DNA of 32,782 bases from assembly GCA_017447875.1 (NCBI GenBank), contig JAFSMP010000048.1:1-32782 (forward strand). The letters run 5' to 3'. Made by a program: the position numbers and the translations under genes. The notes below the pieces were generated by a model, which ran no database searches, had not been told where the DNA came from, and saw only the letters and a program-made list of their open reading frames with translations. The first letter of the stretch is position 1. Each line of letters starts with the position of its first letter. The DNA comes from Paludibacteraceae bacterium. GTDB taxonomy: Bacteria > Bacteroidota > Bacteroidia > Bacteroidales > Paludibacteraceae. Positions 5,143 through 31,510 of the stretch are shown here, in pieces.

Positions 5143-5556
5143 ATGAAAAGTGTTAAGATTATTGGTTATCGGCTAGCGGCGATAGTGCTTTTAGCAATGC
5201 TGCCGATAGTAATGAGCGCAGTGGAGTATAAGAACAGTTATAAGCCATCTGGAATTAGCAATCAGCGAGCAGCCAGTGTACAGGTAGCGGCACCGTCGGC
5301 AGCGTTCCAATCGACCAGTACCTTACCCGGATCGGGTAGCGCGTTGAGCGCTACACCGATGCTGGGCGAGGATGGAACGGCAACATTGGAAGGAGCGGCA
5401 AGTGCACCTGCTCAGGCTCCAAGCGGACCGAGAAAGTCCTCCGTGTTCGATGACGAAAATGAGGATATGCCCCTCGGTGATGCTGTCCTTCCCTTGCTCC
5501 TCCTCGCGGGTGCGTACCTGAGCGTGCGCGTGTTCCTTAATAGAAAGCGCGCGTAA
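5143..5556 (+). CDS. Small two-segment membrane protein with PLGD C-terminal tail (module 1 partner)
   Basis: 137 aa. Residues about 8-25 form a hydrophobic N-terminal segment that could be a signal peptide ending MSA. A low-complexity Ser/Ala/Pro middle (FQSTSTLPGSGSALSATPM) follows, then an acidic patch (DDENED), MPLGDA, a hydrophobic stretch (about 114-131) and a basic end (NRKRA). This motif + membrane segment + positive cluster is the layout of processed sorting tails such as sortase or exosortase substrates, but I know no named family for it. The protein at 11925-12569 has the same plan and sits in the same place after a paralogous giant gene, so the two genes probably form a functional pair. 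The start is the ATG after the purine-rich AAGAAAGGAAAC. The stop codon lies in a short GTTAAGC-like repeat and is followed by a terminator. Confidence 0.8.
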   Translation: MKSVKIIGYRLAAIVLLAMLPIVMSAVEYKNSYKPSGISNQRAASVQVAAPSAAFQSTSTLPGSGSALSATPMLGEDGTATLEGAASAPAQAPSGPRKSSVFDDENEDMPLGDAVLPLLLLAGAYLSVRVFLNRKRA

Positions 5557-5573
5557 GCCGTTAAGCGATTAGC
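5553..5573. repeat. Short heptamer repeat, about three units
   Basis: Three degenerate 7-nt units close to GTTAAGC overlap the stop codon of the 137-aa protein gene. The unit resembles the AACCGCT/TAACCGN array at 26532-26566. It is short and imperfect, so this is a weaker case than the five-unit arrays elsewhere in the window. Confidence 0.45.
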
Positions 5574-5583
5574 GGAATTTTGC

Positions 5584-5621
5584 AAAAAAATGGCATACAA
5601 ATTTGCGTATGTCATTTTTTT
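5584..5621 (+). terminator. Rho-independent terminator after module 1, fused to the next promoter
   Basis: An A-tract, the arm TGGCATAC, the loop AAATTTGC and the arm GTATGTCA (one G-U pair) are followed by seven T. The -33 box of the next promoter lies in the loop, and the T-tract forms part of its 20-nt spacer, so one element both ends transcription of module 1 and carries a new promoter. Confidence 0.8.
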
Positions 5622-5633: not shown

Positions 5634-5639
5634 CAACTG

Positions 5640-8800: not shown

Positions 8801-11800
8801 CGTTTGATAAGAACCATGCATCGGCGACGGGTACGATGGAGAACATCTCCGTTCCGAAAGGATCGACCTTCGCGCTGGAGGAGAATGCGTATGAGTTAGC
8901 AGGGTCTAACTTCCTCGGTTGGACGGAAGATGCTCCGGGTGCAGGGCTGTTGATTGCTGACGGAGCGGATTATACGACCGAGGCGGACGTGACGCTCTAT
9001 GCGCAGTGGGAAGAGATCATCCAGACCACAATCACGCTGGATGCCACGGGTGCGTATAACCGCTATACCTCATCGGTGGTAGCGACCTACAACAAACCGA
9101 TGCCGGAGATAGCCGTGCTGCCTAAGCGCGCTAACGGCTATGTGTTCGACGGATATTATACCGAGCCCAACGGTGGCGGCACGCAGTACTATACCGGTTT
9201 GGGCGCCAGCGTACAGAACTGGGATAAGACGGATCCGACCTATACCCTGTATGCCAAATGGTTAGAACCTTGCGACCTCGTTCCAACGCTGACGAAGGTG
9301 TCTCCGGGTGTGACGATATGGGATGGACAGAAGGTAGATGTAGGCGTGGTGAAACTGACCTGCGAATATGAGGTGGAAGGTATTACCTATGACCTGCAGT
9401 CTGTCTCGCCTGTGAATCCGGTCAACGGCTGTACCTTCGAGTATTTCGATGAGTATGTCCATTTGCGCGGCGTACCGGCTGTAGGTAACACAGAGGTGCT
9501 GAATATACCGGTGACCTTCACTATGGCTAACTCTTGCGACCCGGCTCGTACGTACACGATCTCCACATCGATCCGTATCTATCCTGCGGGACAGAAAGCG
9601 AAGATAGCGTTTATTATCACCGGTACTAAGGGCGGAGCGTTTAATGCCTATTCGGCTTCGGACGCCTCGTCGTGTAACGACCTGGTGACCTATCTGGGCA
9701 ATTATTTCGATATCACCTATGTGAACGGATATGCATCCAAGGATGAGGCGACGCTGGCAACTTATTACGATCAGTACGACCTGATGGTGGTGACTGACTT
9801 CTTGAATACGCAAGAGGGCTATACCAATGCGCTGGGTACGCTGATAGACAAGAAACCGATCCTCAGTTTTGAGGCCTACGTAGCAGGCTTGTCGAACTGG
9901 CATATCGGATCCAACCCCAAGGACCCGAAACCGAAGGTGCAGGATATGAAGGTGCTTTGTGCCGGTCACGCGATCTTCAAGAATGCGAAATACGAAGAGG
10001 GTGACGCCGAGGAGACGGTAGTGGTGAGAGCCGATACAACCGTGAACGTATTGGCGAGCCTGAGTAGCGCCGAGAAAGCGAAGGGCTTGCAGGGCTTTAC
10101 GATCAACGAGGCTCCGGACTTTGTGTTCCTGGCTACGATCGAAGATGCGAATAACAACCGTGACCTGATCGTCTGCTGCGAGCGACAAGTGACGTTCCCG
10201 GCCCGACTGCTGCTGTACGGAATCAATTTCTACGAGATGCCGAACCTCTCCAAAGCCGGTAAGATCGTCATGCGACAGATGATCGACTATCTGCTGATGA
10301 CAGACGAGACCAAAGTGGCGGACTGCTCGCTGGTATTTGATAATAAGAGTGGTGACCATAAATGGGATAATCCGGCTAACTGGGCTCCGGGTTATAACAT
10401 TATCCCGACGCCGTATCACCCGACGCGTATCATCGCAGAGTGCTGGGTGAACGTGGACGATGCCCATGCGGGTAGTGTGAAGATCAACAAGGGTCGCGAT
10501 GAACACGATAACGTCGTGGACGGTAAACTGATCGTGAAGCCGTATGGCGGATTGACCATTGCCGGCCTGGTAGCTACCGTCAAGGACACCCGTTATGCTT
10601 CGCCGATCACCATCAAGGCGGAAGACCTGCTAATTGAAGCCGATGAGGATAACAACGGTGCATTCGTCTATGGTAACAAGGAATCGGACGTACGTGCGAC
10701 CGTGCAGTACTACAGTCGCGGCGAAGGAGCGAGAACGAACAGTCCGGTTTGGCAGTACATGGGTACGCCGTTCCAATCGGGACATTCGGCGATCAGCATG
10801 TACCGCGACGCGTGGATGTGCCGCTGGACCACTGCTTCGGATAAGACGATGGGTGGCCTCTGGCAATGGGTGGAGAACGACGACGTGCTCATTCCGTTCG
10901 AGGGCTATTGTATCACGCAGGAGGCTAAGAAGACCTATACGTTTGCCGGTAAACTGAATGCACCGGTGACCAAGACCCTGATCCTCGATAACCGTGAACC
11001 GGACGACGGATTCGCGTTTGTAGCGAACAGCTGGACGGCGCCGATTAAGATCCAAGAGATGGAGGATGAGGACTTCACCAATGCCGAGCGCGCAATCTAT
11101 ATCTACCATACAGGTACGTACGCCGAATGGACGGCTAACGGTAATCCTGCTATCAATGCCACTTCGGCTGCGGTCACACTCCCGGGACAATATGCCGTTA
11201 TCCCGATTCACTCCTCGCCGTATATCTCAGGAGCAGACTCCGTCATTCCGGCTATGCAGGGCTTCTTCGTGAAGACCAGCAGTGCAGATGCCAAACTGAA
11301 ACTGGTATATAACCGTACAGTCTATGACGCGAAGTACTTCAAGACCTCGACCCAACCTATGCGGGCGCCGAGCCGTTACGGTGCTCCGGAACTGATGCTG
11401 CTGACGGTGCTCGGTAAGACCTCCGGTGGTGACCGCGTACATATCTTAGAGCGCGGTGATTTCTCCGAAGAATATGCAGACGGTTGGGATGGACGTAAGA
11501 TCGCCGGCGATGAGGCGGCTCCGAAACTGGCACTTGTCAAAGAGGCCGGCGAGATGGCAGTAGCGGCACTGGAGAGTGCGGATGAGCATTACCTCAGTTT
11601 CCGTGCCGGTCAGGACACCGAATATACCTTCCATTTCGAATACGAAGGCGAACCGATATACCTCTATGACCAGTTCACCGGTGAGGCTACGCTCATCGAG
11701 ACCGGTAACACCTATACCTTCCAAGCTACTAACAGCACGGCCGTTAAGCGGTTCCTGCTTACGAAGAATCCTCCGCGTGTGCCGACGGCTCTGGAGAATA

Positions 11801-11928
11801 CAGCAGACAGAGTACAGAATACAGACCAGAAGTTTATTCAGGAGGGTAAACTATTCATCTTCCATGGCGGAGTAATCTATGACGCGCAGGGCAAGCGCGT
11901 AGAGCTCAGAAAGGAGGGTGCGTTATGA
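5824..11928 (+). CDS. Giant multidomain secreted/surface protein (module 2)
   Basis: 2034 aa with a signal peptide at about 1-28 (FAAVFVLITMLCGKAWGA). About 205-290 (TIYLKPGVWKTGEG...) looks like a starch-binding or other carbohydrate-binding beta domain; 320-395 is Ig-like with paired Cys (CACATHFQWYHG ... GGNYYCKAWG); 740-809, 990-1064 and 1069-1149 are List-Bact-type repeats ending AKW/AQW/AKW; 1260-1490 is the alpha/beta segment shared with module 1 (KIAFIITGTKGG, LMVVTDFLN, PILSFEAYVAG, VCCERQV); the rest is the shared beta-rich C-terminal region, ending LFIFHGGVIYDAQGKRVE. The shared C-terminal half makes the two giants paralogs with different N-terminal binding domains. The start follows a matching promoter by about 20 nt, and the stop overlaps the next start as ATGA. 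The role, perhaps glycan binding or adhesion, is inferred from domains only. Confidence 0.9.
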   Translation: MRYFTLRSNRIFAAVFVLITMLCGKAWGADFTSTETVAAGGTTKSHVTCSSSETSTTGKKIKNVSSQPCVAIGSTADTDPGAYYIQIQADEGYTIDNTLSITGAANGSSAGSLAVLMWRGAYSATSADTCFTVTAPANSSTTEDQISLTFPSGRFRTIRLYKRINYNEGTIGSGASGNSHRIPSSGVSFNVKSISASATAQVTTKTIYLKPGVWKTGEGNERFAVYCFNATGNEWYDMSLFVQNDCDGTVYKAEVSLDYTTYIFCRMNPGTTENNFNDGVKWNQTDDQAASGGEYAEVTGWGSGNSPCNWNHKPYSVCVTGTWLAFKGETITLTATCACATHFQWYHGSDPIEGATSATYTKTSCTRADGGNYYCKAWGVAGESEAKSSNVYGVKVPYLAIQTGGGGDLQDLDFVRTSPSDETATCERYLGVAWDYEMLVKDGIDARGNTGTMTSNNCTDWTMDQLNNDKWCRINTTKEGTYHFTLSFSNSTYAPVKLSATYPPMVQTPGLKVYIENTPAMQERGWNNSSIYYRIGKGKYDDGDDRNWTAAQLMTLVPGTARYLYTTTPDWGNNFWVWHIANNAGWVDGKYSIYKTKTEDSYAITESSNFNGDEVTTDRTIYLNSTSGGYGEDPINSNCQFYGYTHSNGMITHNASVGETTNGQIKVEYTHHDNTAQTNEAYASRTINDLAHTCNLKITGVPDNGYKVVSVTVNGEAFASGNTHILAADATIAATFDHATYTVTLHPNEGTINSGNVTEYTHGTGATLPTDVTKDNKEFAGWYDNEACTGDPIDVISTTEWGNKEYWAKWVNEVPKVTYILGSCYVNGSKMWTQGSDGSVKAWLFQKGATVAENNVKATTDISISSNSTGGVYFNTKDITLLDNESYWNTSSGSNRAIKALKVSGGGTITFNLSGMIASQIAFYVFPASKDAYSIDLTVNGATTNRAIAANQQHKWHKYQYKGGNYSGEFSITSNSKESRVVVIVEVPLVTVTFDKNHASATGTMENISVPKGSTFALEENAYELAGSNFLGWTEDAPGAGLLIADGADYTTEADVTLYAQWEEIIQTTITLDATGAYNRYTSSVVATYNKPMPEIAVLPKRANGYVFDGYYTEPNGGGTQYYTGLGASVQNWDKTDPTYTLYAKWLEPCDLVPTLTKVSPGVTIWDGQKVDVGVVKLTCEYEVEGITYDLQSVSPVNPVNGCTFEYFDEYVHLRGVPAVGNTEVLNIPVTFTMANSCDPARTYTISTSIRIYPAGQKAKIAFIITGTKGGAFNAYSASDASSCNDLVTYLGNYFDITYVNGYASKDEATLATYYDQYDLMVVTDFLNTQEGYTNALGTLIDKKPILSFEAYVAGLSNWHIGSNPKDPKPKVQDMKVLCAGHAIFKNAKYEEGDAEETVVVRADTTVNVLASLSSAEKAKGLQGFTINEAPDFVFLATIEDANNNRDLIVCCERQVTFPARLLLYGINFYEMPNLSKAGKIVMRQMIDYLLMTDETKVADCSLVFDNKSGDHKWDNPANWAPGYNIIPTPYHPTRIIAECWVNVDDAHAGSVKINKGRDEHDNVVDGKLIVKPYGGLTIAGLVATVKDTRYASPITIKAEDLLIEADEDNNGAFVYGNKESDVRATVQYYSRGEGARTNSPVWQYMGTPFQSGHSAISMYRDAWMCRWTTASDKTMGGLWQWVENDDVLIPFEGYCITQEAKKTYTFAGKLNAPVTKTLILDNREPDDGFAFVANSWTAPIKIQEMEDEDFTNAERAIYIYHTGTYAEWTANGNPAINATSAAVTLPGQYAVIPIHSSPYISGADSVIPAMQGFFVKTSSADAKLKLVYNRTVYDAKYFKTSTQPMRAPSRYGAPELMLLTVLGKTSGGDRVHILERGDFSEEYADGWDGRKIAGDEAAPKLALVKEAGEMAVAALESADEHYLSFRAGQDTEYTFHFEYEGEPIYLYDQFTGEATLIETGNTYTFQATNSTAVKRFLLTKNPPRVPTALENTADRVQNTDQKFIQEGKLFIFHGGVIYDAQGKRVELRKEGAL
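11796..11830. repeat. Heptamer array inside the giant gene (unit near GAATACA)
   Basis: Five 7-nt units; the first and fourth are GAATACA and the others are variants. It encodes the linker ENTADRVQNTDQ between the last beta domain and the short C-terminal tail of the 2034-aa protein. Because 7 is not a multiple of 3, each unit is read in a different frame. Confidence 0.7.
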
Positions 11929-12569: not shown

Positions 12570-14386
12570 AAGCGGTAGGTCGCTCCGATCAGGAATCCGA
12601 TACCCTGACTGCGATATCCGTAGAGGTATTCGTTCTTGCGGTGTAACCAGTTGTCGAGTTGGAAGAAGAGCGCTAAGTTAGGCTGAGGCTCCGGACGTAC
12701 GATCTGTTCGCCGCTGGCTTTAGATGAGCGTGCATTCATGCGCGATGCCTTCCCAACCAGCATCTCATACTGCAGACCGAGGTTCAGGTCCACGATCGGC
12801 GCCAAGGTATGTTCGCCGTCGGTGGCGAGTGCCTTGCGGCTGCCGACAAACTTGTTCTCCGAATAGAGCGACCAGTGTTCGTCGATCCGACCGTCCACGC
12901 GCAGACCCATCTCCCATTTGGCGCGGTCATAGACCGTTGAGTCGCCTTTCCAGAAATAGGCATCGCCGTAGAAATGGATATTAACGATGTCGCGGTAGTG
13001 GTAATGGATCTGACCGCCTATCTTACCGCGCTGCAGGTCTGTATGGAAATAGGTGAAGTCGCCTGCCTGCACTTTCATGTTCAGCGGTGCGAAAATCGCA
13101 CTGTCCGCCGTCGCCACCCATACATCCTCGTGCTTCATATACGCGTACCCTCCGTGCAACTCGATGAGCAGGTCACGGTACGGACGGATATGAAATCCGA
13201 TCTCACCGTCCACCGGTGTATAGCTTGCTTTATGAGGCTCCATGATACCGGCATGGATGATCCGATAGCGGTTCTCCTCCATGTAACTCTGCAGCGAGTT
13301 GGTACCCAGACTACCCAGTACGTCGGCGTAGATGGTCAACCATTGTTTGGCCACCTGTGCCTCGAAGTTGACATGCGGCGACGGGGCAATCACCCACGGA
13401 CCGAGGTTCATGTCGATGTTCACGCCCGCATGGATACGCACGCGTTTGCCTTCGTACGCATAGTAGGGTTCGATACGGAAGTTATGACGTTTCTGCACCA
13501 GCGAGTCCGGGATCACATCGCCCAGAGAACCTAACTGCAGGAAGTTATTCTGCACATATACGTTCGCGCCTACATGGTGCGCCTCGTTATGCCAATCGAA
13601 CGACGCGTGGGTACGCACCTGGTGTTCACTCACCGCACCGGGTTTGGAGAAGAGCATATAGCCTGTCTGGAATCGATACTGCACGTCCTGTTTGGCATTC
13701 GCCTTGATGCCCAGGAACGCTTCTGCGGTCCATAAAGCCGTCTTGTCGATCGTACCGATCTCGTGCGGCTCCGGATATGCGTCCTCATTCTTCGCCCATA
13801 GACCGTGGTCCTGGCTGTAGTCGTAGAAATGACCGTACTTATGATAGTAGATATTACCGCCATTCACTCCGAAATAGAGGTCGCAGGTGCTGAAGGGATG
13901 GGTGAAGTCAAGACCAATCTTGGTCTTGCTCAGTGCTGCCAGACCCCATTCGGCCTTATGATGGGCGTAGATATCGAGGATCGAGTTCTTACCGTCATCC
14001 AGGTGGTAACCGAAGTCAAAGAGGGTCTGCGGATGACCGAGACCACCGCGGATATATCCGTCGTACGCCTTACCGGCCTCAAAGCGGGTAGGCTGGGAGA
14101 GCATCGAACTGATAGTCGGCGCCGGAGCCACATCAGCCGTATAGGTCGAGTACTCAATGGGCGCCGGTTCGATAGTCGTGGTGACCACCGCCGGTTTGGT
14201 GGACACTTTGCCTGCCGCCTGTATGATCGGTTGAAAATCCCGCTCCACCGTGATCGTACGATTCAGCGCGCTATCGCTTTGGGCGAAAGCGCAGAGGGTT
14301 GCCGTTAAAACTATCGAGATGACGAGACCTCGAGATCTCGAGATCTCAAAAATCTTCAATCTAAAATCTTCAATCTTCAATCTCAT
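12566..14386 (-). CDS. Outer-membrane beta-barrel protein (TonB-receptor-like barrel)
   Basis: 606 aa. The hydrophobic segment LVISIVLTATLCAFAQ (about 21-36) looks like a signal peptide core, followed by a short periplasmic region (ERDFQPIIQAAGKVSTKP) and then alternating amphipathic strands rich in Tyr/Trp/His up to the C-terminal IGFLIGATYRF, whose terminal Phe is typical of barrels inserted by BamA. I see no plug domain or TonB box. Pairing of this kind of barrel with a ~1000-aa TPR protein is, from memory, common in Bacteroidales; the substrate is unknown. The first ~20 residues (MRLKIEDFRLKIFEISRSRG) are wholly encoded by two adjacent short-repeat arrays and do not look like a normal signal-peptide n-region, so the start could be a later codon. 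It overlaps the TPR gene by 17 nt and is last in the pot operon. Confidence 0.8.
   Translation of the reverse strand: MRLKIEDFRLKIFEISRSRGLVISIVLTATLCAFAQSDSALNRTITVERDFQPIIQAAGKVSTKPAVVTTTIEPAPIEYSTYTADVAPAPTISSMLSQPTRFEAGKAYDGYIRGGLGHPQTLFDFGYHLDDGKNSILDIYAHHKAEWGLAALSKTKIGLDFTHPFSTCDLYFGVNGGNIYYHKYGHFYDYSQDHGLWAKNEDAYPEPHEIGTIDKTALWTAEAFLGIKANAKQDVQYRFQTGYMLFSKPGAVSEHQVRTHASFDWHNEAHHVGANVYVQNNFLQLGSLGDVIPDSLVQKRHNFRIEPYYAYEGKRVRIHAGVNIDMNLGPWVIAPSPHVNFEAQVAKQWLTIYADVLGSLGTNSLQSYMEENRYRIIHAGIMEPHKASYTPVDGEIGFHIRPYRDLLIELHGGYAYMKHEDVWVATADSAIFAPLNMKVQAGDFTYFHTDLQRGKIGGQIHYHYRDIVNIHFYGDAYFWKGDSTVYDRAKWEMGLRVDGRIDEHWSLYSENKFVGSRKALATDGEHTLAPIVDLNLGLQYEMLVGKASRMNARSSKASGEQIVRPEPQPNLALFFQLDNWLHRKNEYLYGYRSQGIGFLIGATYRF
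14315..14346. repeat. Octamer array (unit near CGAGATCT)
   Basis: Four 8-nt units close to CGAGATCT lie at the 5' end of the barrel gene, immediately beside the heptamer array at 14352-14386. The unit is related to the octamer array at 25745-25784 (CTCGAAAT). It encodes ISRSRG in the barrel protein N-terminus. Confidence 0.7.
14352..14386. repeat. Heptamer array at the TPR/barrel gene junction (unit ATCTTCA)
   Basis: Five 7-nt units, three of them exactly ATCTTCA. The array contains the barrel start codon (14384-14386), its first dozen codons and, in another frame, the last codons and stop of the TPR gene (YEIED). The same unit recurs inside the metallo-beta-lactamase-fold gene at 26327-26361. 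Confidence 0.8.
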
Positions 14387-17321
14387 AGCTTTCCTCCTTT
14401 TCTACAGGTTTCTCCAATTCATTGAGCCGCACGAGACGTTCTGCGATCAGCGTCGGGATGTCATCGCCGGTGGCGGTGTAGTTCTGCTGCAGCACGAGCA
14501 GGTACTGCCGTGCCTGGAACAGCTCTCCGCGTTCGCGGTTGATATCGCTCAGTAAGATCAGCGCCCGTGCCAACCAGTATTGCTGTTGTGTGTTCATCTG
14601 GGTGAACGACATAATCTCCGCCTCGGCATCGTCCAACTGCTTGCTGTCAAAATACGTCTGTGCCACCAGGTACTTCGCTTCGGCTCCTTGGGCCGTACGC
14701 ACTTCGGTGGCCAGCGTCTTGAGGTCCGGTAAGGCCTTGGCGGTGTTACCCAAACCGAGATACGCTTTGGCGCGGCAGTAGAGTGCCTCGTTCTTCGTCT
14801 CGTCGCTCAGCGGACTGTCACTTAAGATCTGTTCGGCGATGTCGATAGTCGGTTGGTGGCGCTCCAGATGTTGGCAGCAACGTAAGATACCCAGACGTGC
14901 CACATACAGATTCTCGCGGTTGGAAGCCAGTGCATGCAAGCGGTAGAAAGCCTCCAGCGCACAGTTATAGTCCGCCTTGTCGTAACAGATCTCCGCCACA
15001 CGCGTAGAGGCCTCTTCCTGGTAAGGATTGGCAGCCATCTCCGACAGGAGCATATACTGCGCCAGAGCCTCGCTGCTCTTACCCAAGCGGTAATAGGAGT
15101 CCGCCAGGTAATACCGCGCCATGGTGCAGTACCGTCCGCCGGCGCAGAACTGGGTGAGATAATTCGTCAGGGTCACCGTCGCCTTCTGGTAGTCCGCCTG
15201 CATATACTGCATCTCCGCCGAAGCGTAGAGCAGACTGTCCTCTTGCGTAGTGACGTTCATATTCATCTTCGCCAGCCCCTTGGTGTACGCTACGAACTCA
15301 TCCACCTGTCCGGTCTCCACATACAGCGCCTGCAGTGCGTCCAAGGCCGTGTAGGCTTCTTCCGTGGCCGGGTATTTCTCGATCGTAGCACGGTAAGCGG
15401 CAATAGCCTGGTCGTTATCGTGGATATTACGGAACAGCATCGCCCGCTCCAGACTCGCCTTACGTGCCAGTTTGGACTGCGGGTAGGTAGCCAACAGCGA
15501 CTCATAGGTCGTTATCGCACTGCGCTCATCGTCCATCTGTAACTGCGCGCGGGCGATCTCATACACACCGTCATCCGCATAATCGGATTTCGGATAACGC
15601 TTGATCAACTCCCGGAGGACGTCAATCTTCTCGCCGTATTTATGTTGCAGACCCAAGGCATAACCGCGTTGGAACAACGCATAGTCTGCACCCGCTGCCT
15701 GCAGGTTACTTACCTGACTGTAATAGGTGATCGCCTGGCTGAACCGGCGTGCATTGAAATAGCAGTCACCGATCCGGTTGAGGGCATCGGCGTAAGTGGG
15801 TTCGGTCGCCAAAGCAGCATCGATATAGGCGGAGAAAGCATTTTTCGCTTCTTCGTATTTCGCTTGCGAGAAGGCACAGTAACCGTTGAGGTACTGCGCA
15901 ATGACGTAGTTACCGGACTGACGAACGTCCGAACGGGCAAAGAAGGCCTGCAGGTCTTTCTCGCACGCCAGGTAGGCTCTCAGACGATAGTTGGCTTCCG
16001 CGCGCAGGTAATAGGCCTCGGTGGTGTACCGGTCGGACTCAGCCGCATGGTTGATCACCTCCGTCGTCCATTCCACCGCCTGCTGCATCTTACCTTGCAG
16101 GAAACAGTCGGCTCCTAACTGGTAGCGCAGGTACTGCTTGGTCTGAAGCATCTTCGGCGTGGGTTGTTCGATCGAGTCCAGCGTAGCGATGGCTGCCGCG
16201 TAGTTCTTACTCTGCATCAGTGCGTCGCTCAGCAACTGGTACACGCGGTTCTCGTATTGGGAATTCGGGAAGCGGTGCAGGAAATCATTGAACGCCCGTA
16301 CCGACTCACCCAACGCACTCGAACTCTGATAGGTACACAGGGCGTAGTTATACGATGCCTCCTCGGTGATAGCCGGCGTTAACTGGTAGTTAGCGGCCGC
16401 CTGGTAGGATAACATCGCCTGCTCGGGTTGACCCAGCTGCACGTACGCATTACCCATCGTCAGGCAGGTGGACTCCGAGATGGTGTCTTTCTGCTGCTTC
16501 ACCTGCTTGAGGGCTTTCACGGCGGACTCGTACTGACCTAACTTGAACTGAGCGGCACCGAGCATATACATATCGCCGCGCTGCAGCGGTTCTTTGGCCG
16601 CAATCGCTGCCTGACGGTATTTAGCCAGGTGCTCCACCGCTACTCCGTACGCCTGCTTGCGGTAGAAGATCTCACCTAAGATACGGTGCAGTTCTCCGTT
16701 ATTCGGGCTGTCCGGATAGTCACGAAGAAGGATCTCGGCGCGAGACTCCACCTCTTCGTAGTTCTTCTGCGCGTAGTAGATCTGCACGATATAGTACGGC
16801 ACGGTCTTCGCGAAAGACGGGTCGTTCTCCAATCGCAACAGAGCCGGCAGAGCCGCGTCGTACTTCTCCATCTTGTACATACAATACGCGTGGTAGTAGT
16901 TACCCTGCGCACTATAACGGCTGTCACCCTTACCCAACTGCGCAAAGTAGATCGATGCCCGCTGGTATTCCTGCATCATCAGGTAGGCATAGCCGCGATA
17001 GAACGAGTAGTCGTTCTGGTGCGGACGCGTCAAGGCCGTCACATCGATCTGCTCCAGGATCTTCAAGCTCTGTTTGTAATGCCCTTTCTCCACCTGCAGC
17101 ACACCTTGCATGAAGTTCACCTCATCGGCGAAGGTGGTGTAGGGGTAGGCTTGCAGGTAGGCCTTCAAGTCTTTTTGCAGCAACTTATCCCGTCCGTCAA
17201 AACGAGCCGCCAACGCGTCATAGCGTTGTTCCATCTCGCTCGTCTGAGCATAAGCGGGAGTTACTAGGATTCCTAGGAACCCTAGGAGCCCTAGAATACC
17301 TAGTCGGATTTGTTTTCTCAT
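14370..17321 (-). CDS. Periplasmic tetratricopeptide-repeat protein, ~1000 aa
   Basis: 983 aa with a signal peptide (about 1-25, ending TPAYA before QTS) and then a nearly continuous array of TPR-like helix pairs, recognisable by repeated A..Y..AL/G.......Y..A motifs (for example FYRGYAYLMMQEYQRASIYF, LGAAQFKLGQYESAVKALK, ARYYLADSYYRLGKSSEALA) up to about residue 960, ending in an acidic tail. Such proteins act as protein-protein scaffolds in the periplasm; here the likely partner is the barrel encoded next. The start overlaps the potD stop as ATGA, and the end overlaps the barrel start by 17 nt. The hydrophobic core of the signal peptide, LGILGLLGFLGIL, is encoded by a 9-nt tandem repeat. 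The exact function is not recognisable. Confidence 0.85.
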   Translation of the reverse strand: MRKQIRLGILGLLGFLGILVTPAYAQTSEMEQRYDALAARFDGRDKLLQKDLKAYLQAYPYTTFADEVNFMQGVLQVEKGHYKQSLKILEQIDVTALTRPHQNDYSFYRGYAYLMMQEYQRASIYFAQLGKGDSRYSAQGNYYHAYCMYKMEKYDAALPALLRLENDPSFAKTVPYYIVQIYYAQKNYEEVESRAEILLRDYPDSPNNGELHRILGEIFYRKQAYGVAVEHLAKYRQAAIAAKEPLQRGDMYMLGAAQFKLGQYESAVKALKQVKQQKDTISESTCLTMGNAYVQLGQPEQAMLSYQAAANYQLTPAITEEASYNYALCTYQSSSALGESVRAFNDFLHRFPNSQYENRVYQLLSDALMQSKNYAAAIATLDSIEQPTPKMLQTKQYLRYQLGADCFLQGKMQQAVEWTTEVINHAAESDRYTTEAYYLRAEANYRLRAYLACEKDLQAFFARSDVRQSGNYVIAQYLNGYCAFSQAKYEEAKNAFSAYIDAALATEPTYADALNRIGDCYFNARRFSQAITYYSQVSNLQAAGADYALFQRGYALGLQHKYGEKIDVLRELIKRYPKSDYADDGVYEIARAQLQMDDERSAITTYESLLATYPQSKLARKASLERAMLFRNIHDNDQAIAAYRATIEKYPATEEAYTALDALQALYVETGQVDEFVAYTKGLAKMNMNVTTQEDSLLYASAEMQYMQADYQKATVTLTNYLTQFCAGGRYCTMARYYLADSYYRLGKSSEALAQYMLLSEMAANPYQEEASTRVAEICYDKADYNCALEAFYRLHALASNRENLYVARLGILRCCQHLERHQPTIDIAEQILSDSPLSDETKNEALYCRAKAYLGLGNTAKALPDLKTLATEVRTAQGAEAKYLVAQTYFDSKQLDDAEAEIMSFTQMNTQQQYWLARALILLSDINRERGELFQARQYLLVLQQNYTATGDDIPTLIAERLVRLNELEKPVEKEESYEIED
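17264..17308. repeat. Nonamer array encoding a signal-peptide core (unit near CTAGGANYC)
   Basis: Five 9-nt units beginning CTAG lie in the TPR gene. The 9-nt period keeps frame and gives a three-residue peptide repeat (LGI, LGL, LGF, LGI), forming the hydrophobic core of the signal peptide. Confidence 0.8.
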
Positions 17322-18562: not shown

Positions 18563-19971
18563 TTTTCCTCTTGTTTAGAATTACGTATATTGATATAAAT
18601 TAAAACGCCTAACATAACGATTAAAATTAAGGTGAACAGCGGCCGTAACTCCGGTGTCAGACCACCCTTACGCGCATCGGAATAGATGAACGTACTGAGC
18701 GTCTCCAGACCTCCGCTACCTTTGGTGAAGAATGTCACGCCGAAGTCATCTACGGATAAGGTTAATGCCAAGATAAAGCCCGACAGCATACCCGGCCATA
18801 GTTCCGGCAATAGCACCATACGCAGGGCCTGCGCCGGCGTAGCACCTAAGTCCAGTGCCGCCTCGTACGTGTTGGGATTCATCCTGCTCAGACGCGGCAG
18901 CACACTCAGCACCACATAGGGCGTGCAGAACACCACATGCGCGATGCATACTGTCCCTAATCCTTGACTCATACCCAAGGCCACGAACAACAGGAAGAGC
19001 GATATACCGGTGATAATATCCGGATTGATCATCGGCACGGAGTTGAGGAAACTCACTACTTTCCGTTGCCGTGCCCGCATGTTGTATATACCGATCGCTG
19101 CCAAGGTGCCTAAGATCGTCGAACATAAGGCCGCTACCAAGGCGATGATCAGGGTGTATAATATCGCACTGTTCAGACCCGCGTCCGCTTTACCCGTGAA
19201 CAAGTTCACGTACAGGTCCATTGAGAAACCGGTCCAGTTACCCAGCACCTTGCTTTTCGTGAACGAGAACACCGCAATCAACGCAATCGGTGCGTACAGA
19301 ACCAACAGCAGTAACCACAGGTACAACTGCGAACCGTAATGCCGTCGCAACCCTATTCGTTTACGACGGAGAATCTCTTGCTCCACCGGACTCAGGTTCT
19401 TCTCCTTGCGACGCTGGAGGTAGATATATCCGCCATAGAGGAGGGTGCCAAACAGCACCAGACCTGCGAACAACCACCATATCCAGCCCGTCTTCATCCG
19501 CGCTGCGGCTGTATGCGTACGCACGTATTCTTCAAAAGTCTTGTACGCGTTCGCTACCAGCACCCGCTGACCGCGGTTCTTGATCGTCTTATTGCTCCGC
19601 CAAACGGTCCAGAAGACGTTCGATTCGTCTGTGTAAGAGTAGATACTGTCAAATGCATCAGCCAATTTTGGCTGATATCCATCCGCAAACACGAAGTCCA
19701 GTTGCTCGGTGCTTTCGACTTTCGACTTTTGACTTTCGACTATTATCTTTATATTTACTTTTTCTCCAGAGTATGTCTCCGGAAACTCCGCCAGCAGCGT
19801 GTTCTCGCCCGTCGTCCCGACGCGTAACTCATAGGTGAGGTTCGATTGCGCGCTCAAAGGACAGAGGACAATGGACAATAGACAATAGACTAAAATGTGC
19901 CGAAGGGTATTTAGTCTTTTGTCTTTCAGTGAAACGGTCTTTTGTCTTTCAGTGAAACGGTCTCTTCTCAT
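18559..19971 (-). CDS. potC: Polyamine ABC transporter permease PotC with unusual N-terminal periplasmic domain
   Basis: 470 aa. Residues about 206-470 are a normal-sized PotC/MetI-type permease with the EAA loop EAALDLGATPAQALRMVLLP, which contacts the ATPase. Ahead of it are ~205 extra residues: a signal-peptide-like segment (about 26-43, ILVYCLLSIVLCPLSAQ), a predicted periplasmic domain (about 44-160, LTYELRVGTTGENTLLAEF ... FADGYQPKLADAFDS), a further membrane segment (about 165-185, WIWWLFAGLVLFGTLLYGGY) and a basic cytoplasmic linker (RRKEKNLSPVEQEILRRKR). I do not recognise the periplasmic domain. The start region and signal peptide are built from short repeats (19914-19959, 19857-19891) and the periplasmic domain contains another (19712-19746). 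It overlaps potB and potD by 4 nt each. An internal start for a plain PotC cannot be excluded. Confidence 0.88.
   Translation of the reverse strand: MRRDRFTERQKTVSLKDKRLNTLRHILVYCLLSIVLCPLSAQSNLTYELRVGTTGENTLLAEFPETYSGEKVNIKIIVESQKSKVESTEQLDFVFADGYQPKLADAFDSIYSYTDESNVFWTVWRSNKTIKNRGQRVLVANAYKTFEEYVRTHTAAARMKTGWIWWLFAGLVLFGTLLYGGYIYLQRRKEKNLSPVEQEILRRKRIGLRRHYGSQLYLWLLLLVLYAPIALIAVFSFTKSKVLGNWTGFSMDLYVNLFTGKADAGLNSAILYTLIIALVAALCSTILGTLAAIGIYNMRARQRKVVSFLNSVPMINPDIITGISLFLLFVALGMSQGLGTVCIAHVVFCTPYVVLSVLPRLSRMNPNTYEAALDLGATPAQALRMVLLPELWPGMLSGFILALTLSVDDFGVTFFTKGSGGLETLSTFIYSDARKGGLTPELRPLFTLILIVMLGVLIYINIRNSKQEEK
19712..19746. repeat. Heptamer array inside potC (unit CTTTCGA)
   Basis: Four clear 7-nt units, three of them exactly CTTTCGA, plus a degenerate fifth. 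In the PotC frame this encodes the hydrophilic loop IVESQKSKVESTE of the extra periplasmic domain. Confidence 0.75.
19857..19891. repeat. Heptamer array encoding the PotC signal peptide (unit near ATAGACA)
   Basis: Five 7-nt units grading from AAGGACA to ATAGACA. On the coding strand the array gives most of the hydrophobic stretch LVYCLLSIVLCPL of the PotC N-terminus. Confidence 0.75.
19914..19959. repeat. Perfect 23-bp direct duplication at the potC start
   Basis: Two identical 23-bp copies in tandem (GTCTTTTGTCTTTCAGTGAA plus ACG), a few codons into potC. The two copies are read in different frames, giving RFTERQK and then TVSLKDKR. The start of the unit, GTCTTTT then GTCTTTC, is itself a heptamer pair. 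A tandem duplication this perfect is probably recent or unstable. Confidence 0.85.
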
Positions 19972-23482: not shown

Positions 23483-23503
23483 CCTATAACCTATAACCTT
23501 TAT
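23483..23503. repeat. Short heptamer repeat (unit CCTATAA)
   Basis: Two exact CCTATAA units and one variant fill the gap between the terminator and the efp stop codon. Confidence 0.55.
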
Positions 23504-24069: not shown

Positions 24070-24104
24070 AATTAAAAATTAAAAATTACGAATTAAAAAT
24101 TCCG
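24070..24104. repeat. Heptamer array in the efp leader (unit AATTAAA)
   Basis: Five 7-nt units, three exactly AATTAAA, immediately upstream of the efp ATG on the minus strand. They make the leader very AT-rich and unstructured at the ribosome entry site. Next to it is a small hairpin (TTCCG ... CGGAA, 24100-24114). Confidence 0.75.
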
Positions 24105-24124: not shown

Positions 24125-24156
24125 CAAAATTACAAAATTTCTTGCATATATGCAAA
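24125..24156 (-). promoter_or_regulatory. efp promoter, overlapping the divergent marC-type promoter
   Basis: Minus strand: TTTG (24153-24156), 20 nt, TAATTTTG (24125-24132). Its -33 box and that of the + promoter are the two halves of the palindrome TTGCATATATGCAA (24142-24155). Confidence 0.85.
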
Positions 24157-24172
24157 TTTTTTAGTAATTTTG
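24141..24172 (+). promoter_or_regulatory. Promoter of the marC-type/rpiB/radical SAM/MBL operon
   Basis: CTTG (24141-24144), 20 nt, TAATTTTG (24165-24172), with a start site predicted about 16 nt before the ATG at 24195. It shares its -33 palindrome with efp, so RNA polymerase probably cannot occupy both at once. Confidence 0.85.
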
Positions 24173-25252: not shown

Positions 25253-26201
25253 CGCGTGTCGAGCCTATGTGAGTTATGCACTGAGCCGTCTCGGTTCAGT
25301 GCATGTTGCACATGCACCTTTATTCGTCTCCGTCGAACCGGCGAATGTATGTCAGTTGCGTTGTCCCGCTTGTCCTGTCGGTCTTCGAAATAAAGGGATA
25401 CTGGGAAACCGGGATAATGAGCGATTCATGTCCCTCAATGTATGGCATCGGGTGCTCTCGGAGATACGCGACACGGCACTCATCGTGCAGTTCTATTTCC
25501 AAGGCGAACCTCTGCTCAACAAAGACCTGCCGATCATGATCCGGGAAGCCCATGAGGCGGGACTATACACCATCGTTTCTACCAACGCCCAAGCACTCAC
25601 CGAGTCCATGGCGGAAGCACTGGTAACCAGCGGCTTAGACCGAATCATCGTCTCCATGGATGGCCTTACCGACGAGTCTTACAATGCCTACCGTGTCGGT
25701 GGCAGTCTGGAGAAATGCAAAGAGGCGTTACGTTTCCTTCGAAACTCGAAATCTCGACATCTCGAAATCTCGAAATCTCCAATCATCGAACTCCAGTGTC
25801 TTCGTCTAAAGTCCAACGAGCACGAGTGGGCGCAGTTCAAGCGCGAGTATAAGGCACTCGGTGCTGACCGTCTGGTATTTAAGACCGCACAGCTATACGA
25901 CTATGCGAATGGTCACCCGCTTATGCCTTCGAACCCGAAATACAGCCGTTATATTCAAGGTGAAGACGGCCTGTACCACCGGCGGAAACTACACAAAGGC
26001 TGTTGGCGCGTGAAGAGTGGAGTAGTGATCACTACCAACGGTGACGTGCTGCCCTGCTGTTACGACAAGAACCATGCCTACGCCTACGGCAATATCATGA
26101 CCACGCCGCTTAAAGAGTTATTCTCCAATGAGAAAGCCACGGCCTTCCGCCAAACCGCTTTCCGTCAAACCCCTCCAATATGCCAAGAATGCTGGAAATA
26201 A
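25218..26201 (+). CDS. Radical SAM/SPASM-domain protein
   Basis: 327 aa from ATG 25218, chosen because the longer frame (from 25107) would lie mostly inside rpiB. The 4Fe-4S motif is CQLRCPAC (CxxxCxxC) at about residue 50, preceded by the strand FVSVEPANV. A SPASM-like auxiliary cluster region follows near the C-terminus (GCWRVKSGVVITTNGDVLPC, CY, and the final CQECW). Such proteins do radical chemistry on peptides or small molecules; the substrate is unknown and no precursor peptide gene is evident. Residues near 180-190 (NSKSRHLEISKSP) come from an octamer array, and the end has a 2 x 15-nt duplication (AFRQTAFRQT). It overlaps rpiB by 35 nt and the MBL gene by 22 nt. Confidence 0.88.
   Translation: MSVVLTRSRALNACRAYVSYALSRLGSVHVAHAPLFVSVEPANVCQLRCPACPVGLRNKGILGNRDNERFMSLNVWHRVLSEIRDTALIVQFYFQGEPLLNKDLPIMIREAHEAGLYTIVSTNAQALTESMAEALVTSGLDRIIVSMDGLTDESYNAYRVGGSLEKCKEALRFLRNSKSRHLEISKSPIIELQCLRLKSNEHEWAQFKREYKALGADRLVFKTAQLYDYANGHPLMPSNPKYSRYIQGEDGLYHRRKLHKGCWRVKSGVVITTNGDVLPCCYDKNHAYAYGNIMTTPLKELFSNEKATAFRQTAFRQTPPICQECWK
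25276..25304. other. 13-bp hairpin inside the radical SAM gene, 23 nt after the rpiB stop
   Basis: ATGCACTGAGCCG (25276-25288), loop TCT, CGGTTCAGTGCAT (25292-25304): 13 pairs with one G-U. No T-run follows. It could attenuate or stabilise the transcript between rpiB and the downstream genes. Confidence 0.7.
25745..25784. repeat. Octamer array inside the radical SAM gene (unit CTCGAAAT)
   Basis: Four 8-nt units, three exactly CTCGAAAT, plus a degenerate fifth. It encodes a hydrophilic linker before the conserved IELQCLRLKSNEHEW segment. It is related to the array at 14315-14346. Confidence 0.75.
26142..26171. repeat. Two-copy 15-nt duplication at the radical SAM C-terminus
   Basis: Two 15-nt copies differing at two positions; in frame they give AFRQT twice, just before the final CQEC motif. 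Confidence 0.7.
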
Positions 26202-26797
26202 AACGTTTTGTCTTCGGTCCCTTTGAGACGAATTGCTATGTCGTTTCCGACGAGCAGCAGGTACTGCTGGTGGATCCTGCGTGCTATACGCCTTACGAAC
26301 AGCAGCAGTTATACCGGTATATTTCAAATCTTCAATCTTCAATCTCCAATCTTCAATTGTCCATCGTGGCAACGCACGGTCACTTAGATCACTTGTGGGG
26401 CGCCAAATGGGCGACGGAAACCTGGCATACTCCCGTCCTGATGCACGAAGCGGACATCCCCATGGCACACGCCATGCAACAGCAGTACGATATGTTCGGT
26501 GTTCGTGCTACCGCCGAACCCTTCCCTATCGAACCGCTAACCGCTAACCGATTACCGTTCACCGTTATCCAGACACCCGGTCACACTCCGGGCAGTGCAT
26601 GTCTCTATTGGCCGGAAGAAAAGACCTTGTTATCCGGAGATACATTGTTCCAAATGGGTTACGGTCGAACCGACTTACCCGGAGGAAACATGTCTCAATT
26701 GATCACGTCCCTCGAGCACCTCTTTACCCTCCCTTCTGACGTCCTTGTCTATCCCGGACATGGCGATTTTACCACAATTGGCGCAGAAAAGCGTTAA
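26180..26797 (+). CDS. Metallo-beta-lactamase-fold hydrolase, glyoxalase II-like
   Basis: 205 aa (ATG 26180; a second ATG at 26189 gives MLEIKRF, which may be the better start). Metal-binding motifs are complete: THGHLDH, TPGHTPGS, SGDTLF with GYGRTD, and YPGHG. The layout matches small glyoxalase-II-like (YcbL-type) hydrolases, which cleave thioesters such as S-lactoylglutathione analogues; the substrate here is unproven. The protein has two peptide segments encoded by heptamer arrays: SNLQSSISNLQLS just before THGHLDH, and IEPLTANRLPF before TPGHTPGS. Both are predicted to lie in surface linkers between conserved strands. It is last in the marC-type operon and overlaps the radical SAM gene. 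Confidence 0.92.
   Translation: MPRMLEIKRFVFGPFETNCYVVSDEQQVLLVDPACYTPYEQQQLYRYISNLQSSISNLQLSIVATHGHLDHLWGAKWATETWHTPVLMHEADIPMAHAMQQQYDMFGVRATAEPFPIEPLTANRLPFTVIQTPGHTPGSACLYWPEEKTLLSGDTLFQMGYGRTDLPGGNMSQLITSLEHLFTLPSDVLVYPGHGDFTTIGAEKR
26327..26361. repeat. Heptamer array inside the MBL-fold gene (unit AATCTTC)
   Basis: Five 7-nt units, three exactly AATCTTC, with the same unit (in another phase) as the array at 14352-14386. It encodes SNLQSSISNLQLS, an apparent insert immediately before the metal-binding THGHLDH motif. Confidence 0.85.
26532..26566. repeat. Second heptamer array inside the MBL-fold gene (unit AACCGCT)
   Basis: Five 7-nt units grading from AACCGCT to CACCGTT. It encodes EPLTANRLPFTV before the TPGHTPGS motif. 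Two unrelated arrays in one 618-nt gene is striking. Confidence 0.8.
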
Positions 26798-29800: not shown

Positions 29801-31381
29801 AACCACTGGACCTCGGCTGTCCTCACCGACCTCGACGGAACGGCAACCGGTAAGGTCGTCGTAGGTGGTCATAAAGGCTTTACCTATGTGCTCGTTCGGG
29901 CAGCGGCGAAGAACGCGTCGCTCACCTTGCCGTGGACCGGAGCACGCTATACCATCCCTCATGACACCATCGTCTTGGATACCACCACCATCCGCTTCCC
30001 CAACGTGCATCTGGTCGATGAGGAAGGCAACAAAGTGGATCTGGACGGTGCCATCTACCACGAGCAGTTCCGTAATTTCGCCCTCGACCTGCATGTTGAT
30101 GCCCATAAGGCACTCGTCTTCGATAAGGAAGATGCAGGGGAGATGCTCCGCGGACATGTCTATGCCGACGGACATGTGGAGGTGTTCGGCGAAGAGAAAG
30201 ATCTGGCAGTCATCGCCGATGCCGTCACTACCCGTAACTCGCGGTTCCGGCTCTCCATCGATAATGTCGCTACCGCCAATGAATCGAACTTCATCCATTT
30301 TGTTCACCATGAGACCCAAGCCGACTCCGTGCCCGAGACCGATCTCGATAATATCGACCATGCACCGGTGACCTCTAAGATCAAGACTTTCGACCGCCTT
30401 GGCCGTTGTATGCTGCAACTCGGTATCGAGGTCAACCCGCAACTGCAGTTCCAACTCGTGCTCGGGGAGCGCAACGGCGATATGATCCAGGCGCAAGGAA
30501 ACGGTGCGCTCAAACTCCTCTACGACACGGAGACGGGCGACGTCAAACTGCTCGGTACCTACGATATCGAACGGGGTACGATGTCGTACACCGTCGCCAA
30601 TGCCATCCATAAGGAGTTCACGGTGGGCGAAGGATCGTCGATCATCTTCTCCGGTAACCCCAATAACCCGCAACTGAACGTCACCGCCAAGTACCGCGTC
30701 ACTGCGAACCTCAAGGACCTCTTCGGCGAAGAAGTGAACCAACTGGCAACCTCCCGAACCAACATACCGGTGCTCACCTGTATGCATATGACGGGATACC
30801 TCAATAACCCGACCCTCAGCTTCTCGCTCGAGTTCCCCAGTTCGGATCAGGCTATCCAGCAGCAGGTGCGCCAGGTCATCAACACCGACGAGATGCTCAT
30901 GCGTCAGGTGATCTACCTCCTCGTCTTCGGCCGGTTCTATACGCCCGAATATATCGCGAACGCCGAGCAGACCACACTCAACTCCACCTATTCGCTGCTC
31001 TCGTCCACCGTCACCAGCCAGATCAACGCGTGGTTATCTAAGTTGACGAACATGCTCACCCTCGGTGTGGCGATCCGTACTGAAGGAGAAGGACAACAGG
31101 CGTCGCAAGAGTACGAGGCGCAGTTCCAACTGCAACCCGTCGACCGTCTGGTTATCAACGGTAACTTCGGTTACCGCTATAACGATGTGTCCAACCAGCC
31201 TTTCTTCGGTGACCTTGATGTCGAACTGCTGCTCACCGAGGACGGACAATGGCGACTCAAAGGCTATACCCATACCGTCGATAAATACTCCTTGCGACAG
31301 GCTTCCACCATCCAAGGAGTCGGTTTCATGTGGAAAAAAGACTTCAACTGGCCGTCAGTCAAGCGCCGTGACAGCAAATAA
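26858..31381 (+). CDS. tamB: TamB/AsmA-like translocation and lipid-transport protein
   Basis: 1507 aa from ATG 26858, chosen because the earlier in-frame ATG lies in the promoter. One N-terminal membrane anchor (about 5-28, GYIISVILVSILLVGSMFVCV), then an AsmA-like start (VAIKDVFIEDQQHDTLFYAG) and a very long series of beta repeats forming the periplasm-spanning groove typical of TamB. The C-terminal DUF490 domain is recognisable: YDIERGTMSYTV, IIFSGNPNNPQLNVTAKYRV, GYLNNPTLSFSLEFPSSD, EMLMRQVIYLLVFGRF and a final beta region. The family helps move phospholipid to, or assemble proteins in, the outer membrane, in proteobacteria with TamA. No tamA-like gene is in the window. It is transcribed alone from its own promoter. 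Confidence 0.93.
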   Translation: MKRVGYIISVILVSILLVGSMFVCVLSSDRVETAAVNLVAEEFTRALGTQAKVGAMEYRFPARVAIKDVFIEDQQHDTLFYAGELYAAFRPIALFRNEIVFSGVRVKDVVANVYRYSNGTWNYAFLVPPPQEKEHNPFRSILSVRDIRLQNIRVRYESFYAHLDHADMDLRHLSTKALDAQINDIVLSMTRKGSKERFDLQSVQAHLIVNDTIVTMPTMTASLPHSRLDMSGIEVHFPSADTLNLDSAAHDIKMGLMFHEARLVPADIALFVPRVSRLNRAITLNGAVTGTLDSLAFESIALRYDGKTVLEGNVSAVGMPDINRTYLRANLTDFQTNAAQLQDFLSRLNGRPVTLPAAAYRLGTVRYRGLAEGRLENLTLHGAFRTSLGTITTDGTFRSDSILEHMTYNARVVGRRFQLGRMINHAPLGSVTVDVQSAGRIDTGEVRGGIKAHVRELTYKDYTYSDLHIDGHYDPNGYRGQFFVDDPHIAMFFNGVVDLSEQNPELNFNLRCEHFDMEPITDKEFVTRFNLAVDMSGSETDKISGYLVLDSLYVGTDHDTILMQQLTLLASGAVGHSKSFTLRSDYLQAHFDGVFRYKDLVPAAQQLIHYYLPSAVLAPKQPWEPVSFAMRADGERLRDIQRLFIAPLTLSDHPTFTASAYVGPNVEPEVDVHFFAPGVRAGSTPVHDLTLTLNTIDTLRHAGAKGSGLALSISAEAMQLHTVFSSLAFHDTLLTHLTVRQQAQMDELLPEGWRSLSPRELQRALSDDLSQKERKRVLLSAQRAGNYGGDLKLLTHFSRYNKRPLIDMHLLPGTLLLRDSLYSLAESRITYCAADTTLQVDHFAFEGGGVHVRANGFASTNPLDTLAVALQKIDASYVVPFLLPVQTIMFNGLLSGEADITGVFSKPQVDTKIHIDSMGLNNVYFGEAEVDLHITDSLAFHADVYDRPDHKRVNLDGKALFNGIGTWNLDMQADQVPLSFVNHWTSAVLTDLDGTATGKVVVGGHKGFTYVLVRAAAKNASLTLPWTGARYTIPHDTIVLDTTTIRFPNVHLVDEEGNKVDLDGAIYHEQFRNFALDLHVDAHKALVFDKEDAGEMLRGHVYADGHVEVFGEEKDLAVIADAVTTRNSRFRLSIDNVATANESNFIHFVHHETQADSVPETDLDNIDHAPVTSKIKTFDRLGRCMLQLGIEVNPQLQFQLVLGERNGDMIQAQGNGALKLLYDTETGDVKLLGTYDIERGTMSYTVANAIHKEFTVGEGSSIIFSGNPNNPQLNVTAKYRVTANLKDLFGEEVNQLATSRTNIPVLTCMHMTGYLNNPTLSFSLEFPSSDQAIQQQVRQVINTDEMLMRQVIYLLVFGRFYTPEYIANAEQTTLNSTYSLLSSTVTSQINAWLSKLTNMLTLGVAIRTEGEGQQASQEYEAQFQLQPVDRLVINGNFGYRYNDVSNQPFFGDLDVELLLTEDGQWRLKGYTHTVDKYSLRQASTIQGVGFMWKKDFNWPSVKRRDSK

Positions 31382-31460
31382 CCACTTTCTCTGTACGCGC
31401 GCACGCGCTCGTTCCTTATAATTATAAATAATAAAGAGCGCACGACAGCGCCGAACCCGC

Positions 31461-31510
31461 TTTTTGCCCTTTTTGCCTAAAAATGCCTAAAATGGCCTAA
31501 AAATGCCTAA
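31461..31510. repeat. Decamer array upstream of the rRNA operon (core TGCCTAA)
   Basis: Five 10-nt units with the core TGCCTAA (first one TGCCCT), spaced 9-10 bp, roughly one helical turn, so all copies face the same side of the DNA. It ends about 75 nt upstream of the rRNA -33 box. Confidence 0.8.

Follow-up and report, generated by a model that had tools for sequence, protein, structure and literature searches.

How does one bacterial chromosome come to hold many short tandem arrays that differ in their unit and are nearly equal in length? The question is raised by a contig of 32,782 nucleotides (nt) from a Paludibacteraceae bacterium, in which a sequence-only reading had noticed about a dozen arrays of roughly five units each, with units of 7 to 10 nt, and had proposed an active process that builds or inserts them genome-wide. 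This contig, hereafter the window, is contig C25 of an assembly of 2.25 Mb (70 contigs, 76.7% complete). We analyzed it with 40 further stretches of 20 kb from the same genome (832,782 bases in all, ~37% of the genome) and with homologous loci of related bacteria. The arrays were probably, though far from certainly, copied whole into sites that tolerate them, exchanged between species, and edited by slippage.

Abundance and length of the arrays

Arrays were scored with +1 for a match and -2 for a mismatch, with a genome-wide cutoff of at least 14. At this cutoff, 172 arrays were found in the 832,782 bases compared to none in one block-shuffled copy, while codon-order and synonymous-codon shuffles (three replicates each) gave 1.0 and 4.3 arrays per replicate, respectively. 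The excess over these codon-preserving controls was ~40-fold or more at score 14 and 21-fold or more at score 12, and the dinucleotide and codon shuffles rule out chance or codon structure as the source of the arrays. Period 7 was the most frequent (104 arrays), followed by periods 8 (19), 10 and 14 (12 each), 11 (10), 9 (6), 15 (5), 12 (2), 6 (1), and 3 (1), with none at other periods; periods 1 to 6 together contributed 2 arrays.

The arrays are thus genome-wide, as had been supposed, and they are also narrow in length. Period-7 tracts numbered 71 at 14 to 16 nt (42 in shuffles), 33 at 17 to 19 nt (8.5), and 13 at 20 to 22 nt (1.5), some of these short tracts possibly being fragments of arrays interrupted by mismatches. 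Longer tracts numbered 39 at 23 to 26 nt, 18 at 27 to 29 nt, 76 at 30 to 33 nt, 17 at 34 to 36 nt, 5 at 37 to 40 nt, 0 at 41 to 47 nt, and 1 above 47 nt. This histogram departs from the falling curve that slippage would give. The typical period-7 array has ~4.4 units and measures about 30 nt, and longer periods have ~3 to 4.5 units, total length (about 30 to 40 nt) being more constant than the number of units. The copy number near five that had been proposed therefore holds for period 7, with its 76 tracts of 30 to 33 nt, but not for longer periods. A few arrays reach 54 to 65 nt, namely, at L199:17070-17123, in the PotC linker of L057, and at the potA-potB junction of L137 (PotABCD being our own naming for an ATPase, two permeases, and a solute-binding protein), and the size limit, strong as it is, has exceptions.

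One alternative to copying is that each array grew in situ from its own local seed by slippage in steps of 7 to 11 nt, with selection on frame and length holding it to about 30 nt and with shared words arising from composition, stop avoidance, and codon usage. An earlier survey found heptamers to be, in most genomes, the commonest class of simple sequence repeats with units of 5 to 11 nt, and slippage has been put forward as their source (PMC4679880, PMC4692102). The near absence of arrays with units of 1 to 6 nt fits the presence of MutS, which was found in this genome, and speaks for slippage, yet units of 5 and 6 nt are also missing. On the other side, the length mode of 30 to 33 nt is equal within called genes and between genes, where frame is irrelevant, by a crude gene caller that misses some genes, such as the window's hydrolase gene in this comparison. 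These equally long intergenic arrays rule out that selection for frame by itself sets the unit number at about five. Together with the evidence on word order and replacement given below, this leads us to consider growth by slippage unlikely as the main source.

As the sequence-only reading had noted, the arrays lie in tolerant places, i.e., gene junctions, leaders, loops, and signal-peptide-like starts (our own reading of hydrophobic protein starts). Intergenic arrays amounted to 86 of 198 compared to 25.8 expected at random, again with the crude gene caller, and the coding fraction itself varied with gene calling from 86 to 87% (codon score) to 93% (longest open reading frames [ORFs]).

A shared vocabulary and the AGTCGAA word

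Each array had been thought to have its own unit. Units are diverse, with 51 words covering the 123 period-7 arrays of this genome, but some words recur up to 9 times and form a shared vocabulary. For the 14 words with at least 3 arrays (74 arrays), the arrays are locked in phase to a degree that 0 of 5,000 random draws matched, whether starts or ends were considered. In several words, certain unit positions are constant and others variable. This last feature and the intergenic excess would suit arrays that serve as binding sites for a DNA- or RNA-binding protein or in translation control and are retained for that function. With so many words among the 123 arrays, with arrays in gene interiors, and with homologous sites that are often array-free or carry another word, we regard such a regulatory origin as very improbable.

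The strongest evidence for copying rests on the word AGTCGAA. A search of the whole assembly for its 30-mer with up to 3 mismatches gave 15 matches (two overlapping), with 0 for the reversed control. With up to 4 mismatches, the 833 kb held 15 copies, all 15 with a G just outside one end and with flanks that were otherwise dissimilar. When arrays were scanned freely, 9 AGTCGAA arrays were detected, 5 of them 30 nt long and the others 27, 32, 32, and 37 nt, and 8 of the 9 shared a common end phase. Across 55 contexts from the genus, the base after the array was C in 39 and the base before it was T in 32, the remaining flank positions being less biased. The 30-mer (up to 2 mismatches) was present in 28 of 61 genus genomes and in none of the other 33, and matches per genome ranged from one in some genomes to 31 in G015, 38 in G040, and 57 in G007, compared to 3 matches in all for the reversed control over the 61 genomes. 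In G040, the matches were strongly biased in strand (33 forward and 5 reverse), in part owing to overlapping matches in longer arrays. The AGTCRAA 30-mer is also contained in 29 IMG/VR stretches (L273-L301).

The copies are ordered internally as well. Among the matches listed, 52 AGTCGAA arrays had exactly one odd unit, which was the second unit in 32 of them, the third in 13, the first in 3, and the fourth in 4. This tally was made by hand, leaves out G007 and some other genomes, and includes overlapping windows of longer arrays. The binomial value for unit 2 (2.7e-8) serves as a guide only, since shared descent keeps some copies from being independent. Other imperfect arrays have exact duplicates at sites unrelated to their own, and 31 of 175 short repeated stretches include an array.

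Within called genes, 46 of 47 AGTCGAA copies (up to 3 mismatches) lie in the sense orientation and 37 of 47 in one frame, which reads VESQKSKVES, counts that include some homologous sites as well as L243-L272, loci picked as best matches; 18 further copies lie outside called genes. In the window's own genome, the corresponding figures were 12 of 12 and 10 of 12. By inspection, the sense frames of the array are free of stops, so stops are not a sufficient reason for the frame bias, which may come from avoidance of the rare codon CGA. Among the words listed, AAATCTT, AAAATTG, and AAATGGT, which do have sense-strand stops, are found mostly or only outside called genes. At the potA-potB junction, the eight AGTCGAA copies that were translated all add ...VES(H/N)E to potA, ending at ATGA.

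Replacement and probable exchange at homologous sites

Relatives were found via the PotC-like permease domain and are mostly rumen Bacteroidales or Paludibacteraceae metagenome-assembled genomes, the 40 best-aligned loci matching the window at 71 to 76% identity over aligned DNA. A variable stretch of the hydrolase gene carries AATTTTC, AATCGTC, AATTGTC, AATGTCC, other units, or no array in these relatives, and at the PotC start and linker the word differs in most of the relatives that have an array. The potA-potB junction has a detectable array in 35 of 73 homologous loci, with many words and periods of 7, 8, 10, and 14, and the PotA loop has one in 15 of 62. Arrays that differ or are missing at homologous sites rule out ordinary conserved coding sequence. 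For this genome, then, neither counts at the level of codon-preserving shuffles, nor widely spread copy numbers, nor conservation as coding sequence in relatives was found, in line with the sequence-only reading.

The tolerant sites also hold other material. In L084, L118, L122, and L136, the PotA loop has a PPxPSLKGGE-type peptide insert where others hold arrays, and CCCCTCCC...GGAGGGG-like palindromes occupy the PotA loop or the potA-potB junction (L091, L093).

Closer comparison was offered by seven usable pairs, 95 to 96% identical in their aligned parts (L111/L112 was left out, as L112 has runs of N). Tallied by hand from the listed pairs, ~13 sites had an array opposite a different array or unrelated sequence, ~5 sites had a whole-unit change, and the remaining sites were identical or had point changes. 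For instance, L092 carries a 30-nt TCTGTAT array where L090 carries CCTAGGACT (33 nt), with flanks 95 to 98% identical, and L138 has GATAGAT (26 nt) where L139 has GAAAATT (26 nt). The L090/L092 case, in which an array was replaced by one of another period, argues against slippage. The pattern seen is replacement within already variable spacers. Wholesale replacement between ~95% identical relatives thus supports an active process as had been proposed. The units, however, are not independent inventions.

In the clade of L089, L093, L096, and L099 (91 to 96% identical in aligned parts), the potA-potB junction holds three array types and one array-free state. Over ten flanking windows compared with L099, identity was at least 0.93 in 7 for L096 and in 8 for L089, and lower in the others. 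The array types of L096 and L099 are also found in species of ~84% identity, and a degenerate version of the L089 type is present in L130. Between L099 and L147, identity beside the junction is 0.93 and 0.88 compared to 0.68 to 0.85; this slight rise next to the junction suggests short-tract exchange. That part of the array swapping is short-tract exchange between species is therefore supported.

Arrays in the window

Tandem Repeats Finder detected arrays at 12 of the 13 sites listed by the sequence-only reading, and 10 window sites reached a score of at least 13 compared to 0 in any of 60 window shuffles. The sites, with their best scores where obtained, are as follows.

11796..11825 (+), 7-nt array of the GAATACA family, 30 nt, near the C terminus of a 2034-amino-acid ORF (ENTADRVQNTD); score 9
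14314..14347 (-), 8-nt array TCGAGATC, in the N-terminal region of ORF 12566-14386; score 14 for the 8-mer at 14323
14349..14383 (-), 7-nt array AATCTTC/GAAGATT, where two ORFs overlap (MRLKIEDFRLKIF); score 15
17264..17294 (-), 9-nt array (CCTAGGNNN), in the signal-peptide-like start of a TPR protein (LGLLGFLGILV); score 13
19712..19741 (-), 30-nt AGTCGAA array, a VESQKSKVES insert in the N-terminal part of the PotC-like permease, before the permease domain; score 17
19858..19890 (-), 7-nt array (TTGTCYA), in the signal-peptide-like region of the PotC-like permease gene; score 17
19914..19963 (-), 23-nt unit, 2.2 copies (AGACCGTTTCACTGAAAGACAAA), in an N-terminal extension, belonging to a second small dispersed family
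23483..23499 (+), CCTATAA, 2.4 units, at a convergent gene junction, weak; score 10
24070..24101 (+), 7-nt array AATTNNN, between EF-P and a divergent gene; score 13
25745..25779 (+), 8-nt array CTCGAAAT, within the radical SAM/SPASM gene (LRNSKSRHLEISKSP); score 21
26327..26357 (+), 7-nt array AATCTTC, in a variable stretch of the metallo-beta-lactamase-fold hydrolase; score 18
26532..26566 (+), 7-nt array AACCGNT, in a second variable stretch of the same hydrolase (EPLTANRLPFTV); score 16
31474..31513 (+), 10-nt array TGCCTAAAAA, intergenic, preceded by a 9-nt doublet at 31460-31477; score 18

The array at 11796 is weak on its own, and its 30 nt align with those of three GAATACA arrays found elsewhere in the sampled genome, a family likeness that rescues it. 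Identical copies of the 30-mer at 19712 occur at other loci and in other species. The score at 23483 compares to 0.38 sites expected per shuffled window, and the site at 5553, with a score of 5 and no Tandem Repeats Finder entry, was not confirmed as an array.

A domain search of the window identified an ABC ATPase with TOBE_2, two BPD_transp_1 permeases, a solute-binding protein, EF-P, the metallo-beta-lactamase-fold hydrolase, the radical SAM/SPASM protein, an RpiB-like isomerase, and the TPR protein. The second dispersed family, AGACCGCTTCGCTAAAAGACAAAAGACCG-like, includes window positions 19914-19963, L010, L012, L194, L197, and others; L089 has a 59-nt stretch of this type that L093 and L096 lack. 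AT-rich, promoter-like stretches (TTGCATATATGCAA, TACCTTTGCA, TAATTTTG) occur at window positions 24100-24172 and also at 5608, 22256, 26806, and 31581. They are repeated widely in the genome (57 matches), and they are probably Bacteroidales-type promoters (consensus TAnnTTTG).

Distribution across taxa

The density of period-7, -8, and -14 arrays was 16.2 per 100 kb in this genome, 15.5 to 19.8 in close relatives, and 7.5 to 8.2 in genus members L149-L162 and L177-L182. No such array was found in 20 kb from another genus of the family (one genome) or in 43.6 kb from five more other-genus genomes, one of which has a period-12 array. Arrays were present in 4 of 19 genomes from other families of the order and in 1 of 20 elsewhere in the phylum, each outgroup genome being sampled at 20 kb or less, so that low densities were missed. 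Five outside genomes were read further, chosen for already having an array; one, G097 (L302-L305 with L219), has dense heptamer and octamer arrays of up to over 80 nt, and the four others had 1 to 3 period-7, -8, or -14 arrays in 80 to 120 kb. Period-7 arrays in these five genomes had a median length of 50 nt (n = 13) compared to 31 nt in the window's genome (interquartile range, 30 to 33; n = 116). Heptamer arrays are therefore a wider, patchy habit of Bacteroidota, whose longer arrays outside the genus are in favor of slippage, while the short, recurrent form is a special trait of the genus within our sample.

Search for possible copying machinery

A dedicated enzyme, such as a REP-type Y1 transposase, a retroelement, or a telomerase-like polymerase, might instead make or insert the arrays, and their narrow length, common phase, and dispersed families within the genus would fit such an activity. 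The reverse transcriptase domain RVT_1 was found in 15 of 61 genus genomes, the array-rich G040 and G015 having one each. No reverse transcriptase was found in the window's genome (76.7% complete), in G007 (95% complete, with its 57 copies), or in G009, G022, and G029; with several array-rich genomes lacking one, a reverse-transcriptase origin is not supported. Matches to Y1_Tnp occurred in 22 of 61 genomes, 18 of them above the cutoff, and most were weak and partial, including two weak ones in the window's genome, so that a Y1 transposase is not supported as the source either. Neither terminal inverted repeats nor, by eye and with no empty site for comparison, target duplications were visible in the 15 own-genome and 55 genus contexts. 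Seven elements were folded as candidate RNA hairpins, and none was clearly beyond shuffles (minimum free energy of 0 for three; z scores of -1.84, -1.65, -1.43, and +0.11 for the other four). We consequently judge a dedicated enzyme improbable.

How the arrays may spread

From phase, unit order, and frame, we infer that recurrence reflects copying. Independent slippage does not readily account for ordered 30-mers in a common phase or for replacement by an array of another period. That unrelated loci, and other species as well, carry identical ordered 30-mers speaks against it too. In the process that we favor, a vocabulary of short tandem words, mostly heptamers, would spread to unrelated sites on the chromosome, each array being copied entire and with its units in order. 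Copies would persist where about 30 nt is tolerated and, within genes, in a stop-free orientation and frame. At a tolerant site, an array could later be overwritten by another or swapped with the homologous site of a related species, while slippage would alter unit number and selection would act on frame and length. Array-rich genomes without reverse transcriptase, and the lack of visible inverted repeats or target duplication, suggest that the copying is DNA templated, perhaps via short homologies at repair or replication gaps.

Several observations weigh against this explanation. Whole-unit changes between relatives at the species level look locally grown, as slippage would have it; at the potA-potB junction, L128 and L100 differ by 21 nt, equal to three units. 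The precise insertions expected at orthologous loci did not appear, a clean empty site being found for 0 of 322 arrays (joined flanks, 85% identity, 100 loci) in a test made weak by the few close pairs; a pairwise alignment scan for clean insertions was noisy in variable regions and was excluded from the counts. No copying machinery was identified by the searches for reverse transcriptase and Y1 transposase in the genus genomes. Base composition at the array edges may exaggerate the phase lock, the 30-nt extent of the 15 copies in the 833 kb was fixed by the search pattern, and much of the vocabulary is AT rich, which makes chance recurrence easier than for AGTCGAA. Furthermore, the odd unit 2 changes the rare codon CGA (4.2 per 1000) to CAA in the commonest frame, so selection could yield part of the ordered pattern. 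Finally, G097, from another family, has 8 period-7, -8, or -14 arrays in 90 kb, and density is thus not confined to the genus. Our confidence in copying rests on recurrence and replacement, not on exclusivity to the genus.

Relation to known repeats and significance

Searches of open-license PubMed Central, the sole literature consulted, showed no account of such arrays in Paludibacteraceae among the titles and abstract openings listed. Dispersed heptamer arrays with conserved and variable positions have been described, GGGAATC in Xanthomonas and GGGGA(T/C)T in Nostoc (PMC4692102). The Xanthomonas arrays, at 186 and 183 loci in two genomes, are there reported to use one G-rich word, to have 2 to 26 and mostly four units, to vary strongly between species, and to be 89 to 93% intergenic (PMC4692102). 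The Paludibacteraceae arrays are alike in their dominant period of 7, their many dispersed loci, and their conserved and variable unit positions; they are unlike in the number of words, in a tighter length, in lying about half in genes, and in having a word common to sites and species in order and frame. TAACTGA repeats occur in Beggiatoaceae, some Cyanobacteria, and five Bacteroidetes. Maribeggiatoa has 169 sets of two to six copies, while several Bacteroidetes and Cyanobacteria have as many as 43 copies. They lie mostly just upstream of starts, a translational role has been proposed, and near relatives of the word are rarely repeated (PMC4679880). Their 7-nt unit and patchy distribution resemble those of the present arrays, but that system has one word.

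The STRR sequences of cyanobacteria form several dispersed heptamer families per genome, as do the arrays described here; neither in-frame insertion in proteins nor a narrow length is known for STRR. Three STRR words are mentioned for Calothrix (PMC4692102). Rickettsia palindromic elements, as described in a review, are small repeats of about 150 bp inserted in frame in unrelated protein genes with a conserved peptide (PMC10969869). The AGTCGAA family, and that family only, is similar in its in-frame position in unrelated genes and its conserved peptide, whereas the arrays are about 30 nt, tandem, and not palindromic. The Paludibacteraceae arrays combine features of known systems and match none fully.

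Heptamer repeats have been reported in several bacteria, and why the unit is seven and how it spreads are, in the papers cited above, matters of hypothesis. In one genus with many words, differing homologous sites, and recent replacement between close species, comparison can tell slippage, copying, and exchange apart. In-frame copies in conserved transport and housekeeping proteins offer a route from short DNA repeats to new protein segments. A bolder and more doubtful view, which we put forward tentatively, is that the 30-nt nonpalindromic array may be a mobile ten-codon cassette. With neither a reverse transcriptase nor transposase ends, whole copies would enter dozens of unrelated proteins, sharing one orientation and one reading frame, and a whole vocabulary of such cassettes may keep rewriting signal peptides, loops, and junctions across the genus. 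If so, few known dispersing genetic elements would be smaller, and the cassette would supply new peptide sequence continually.

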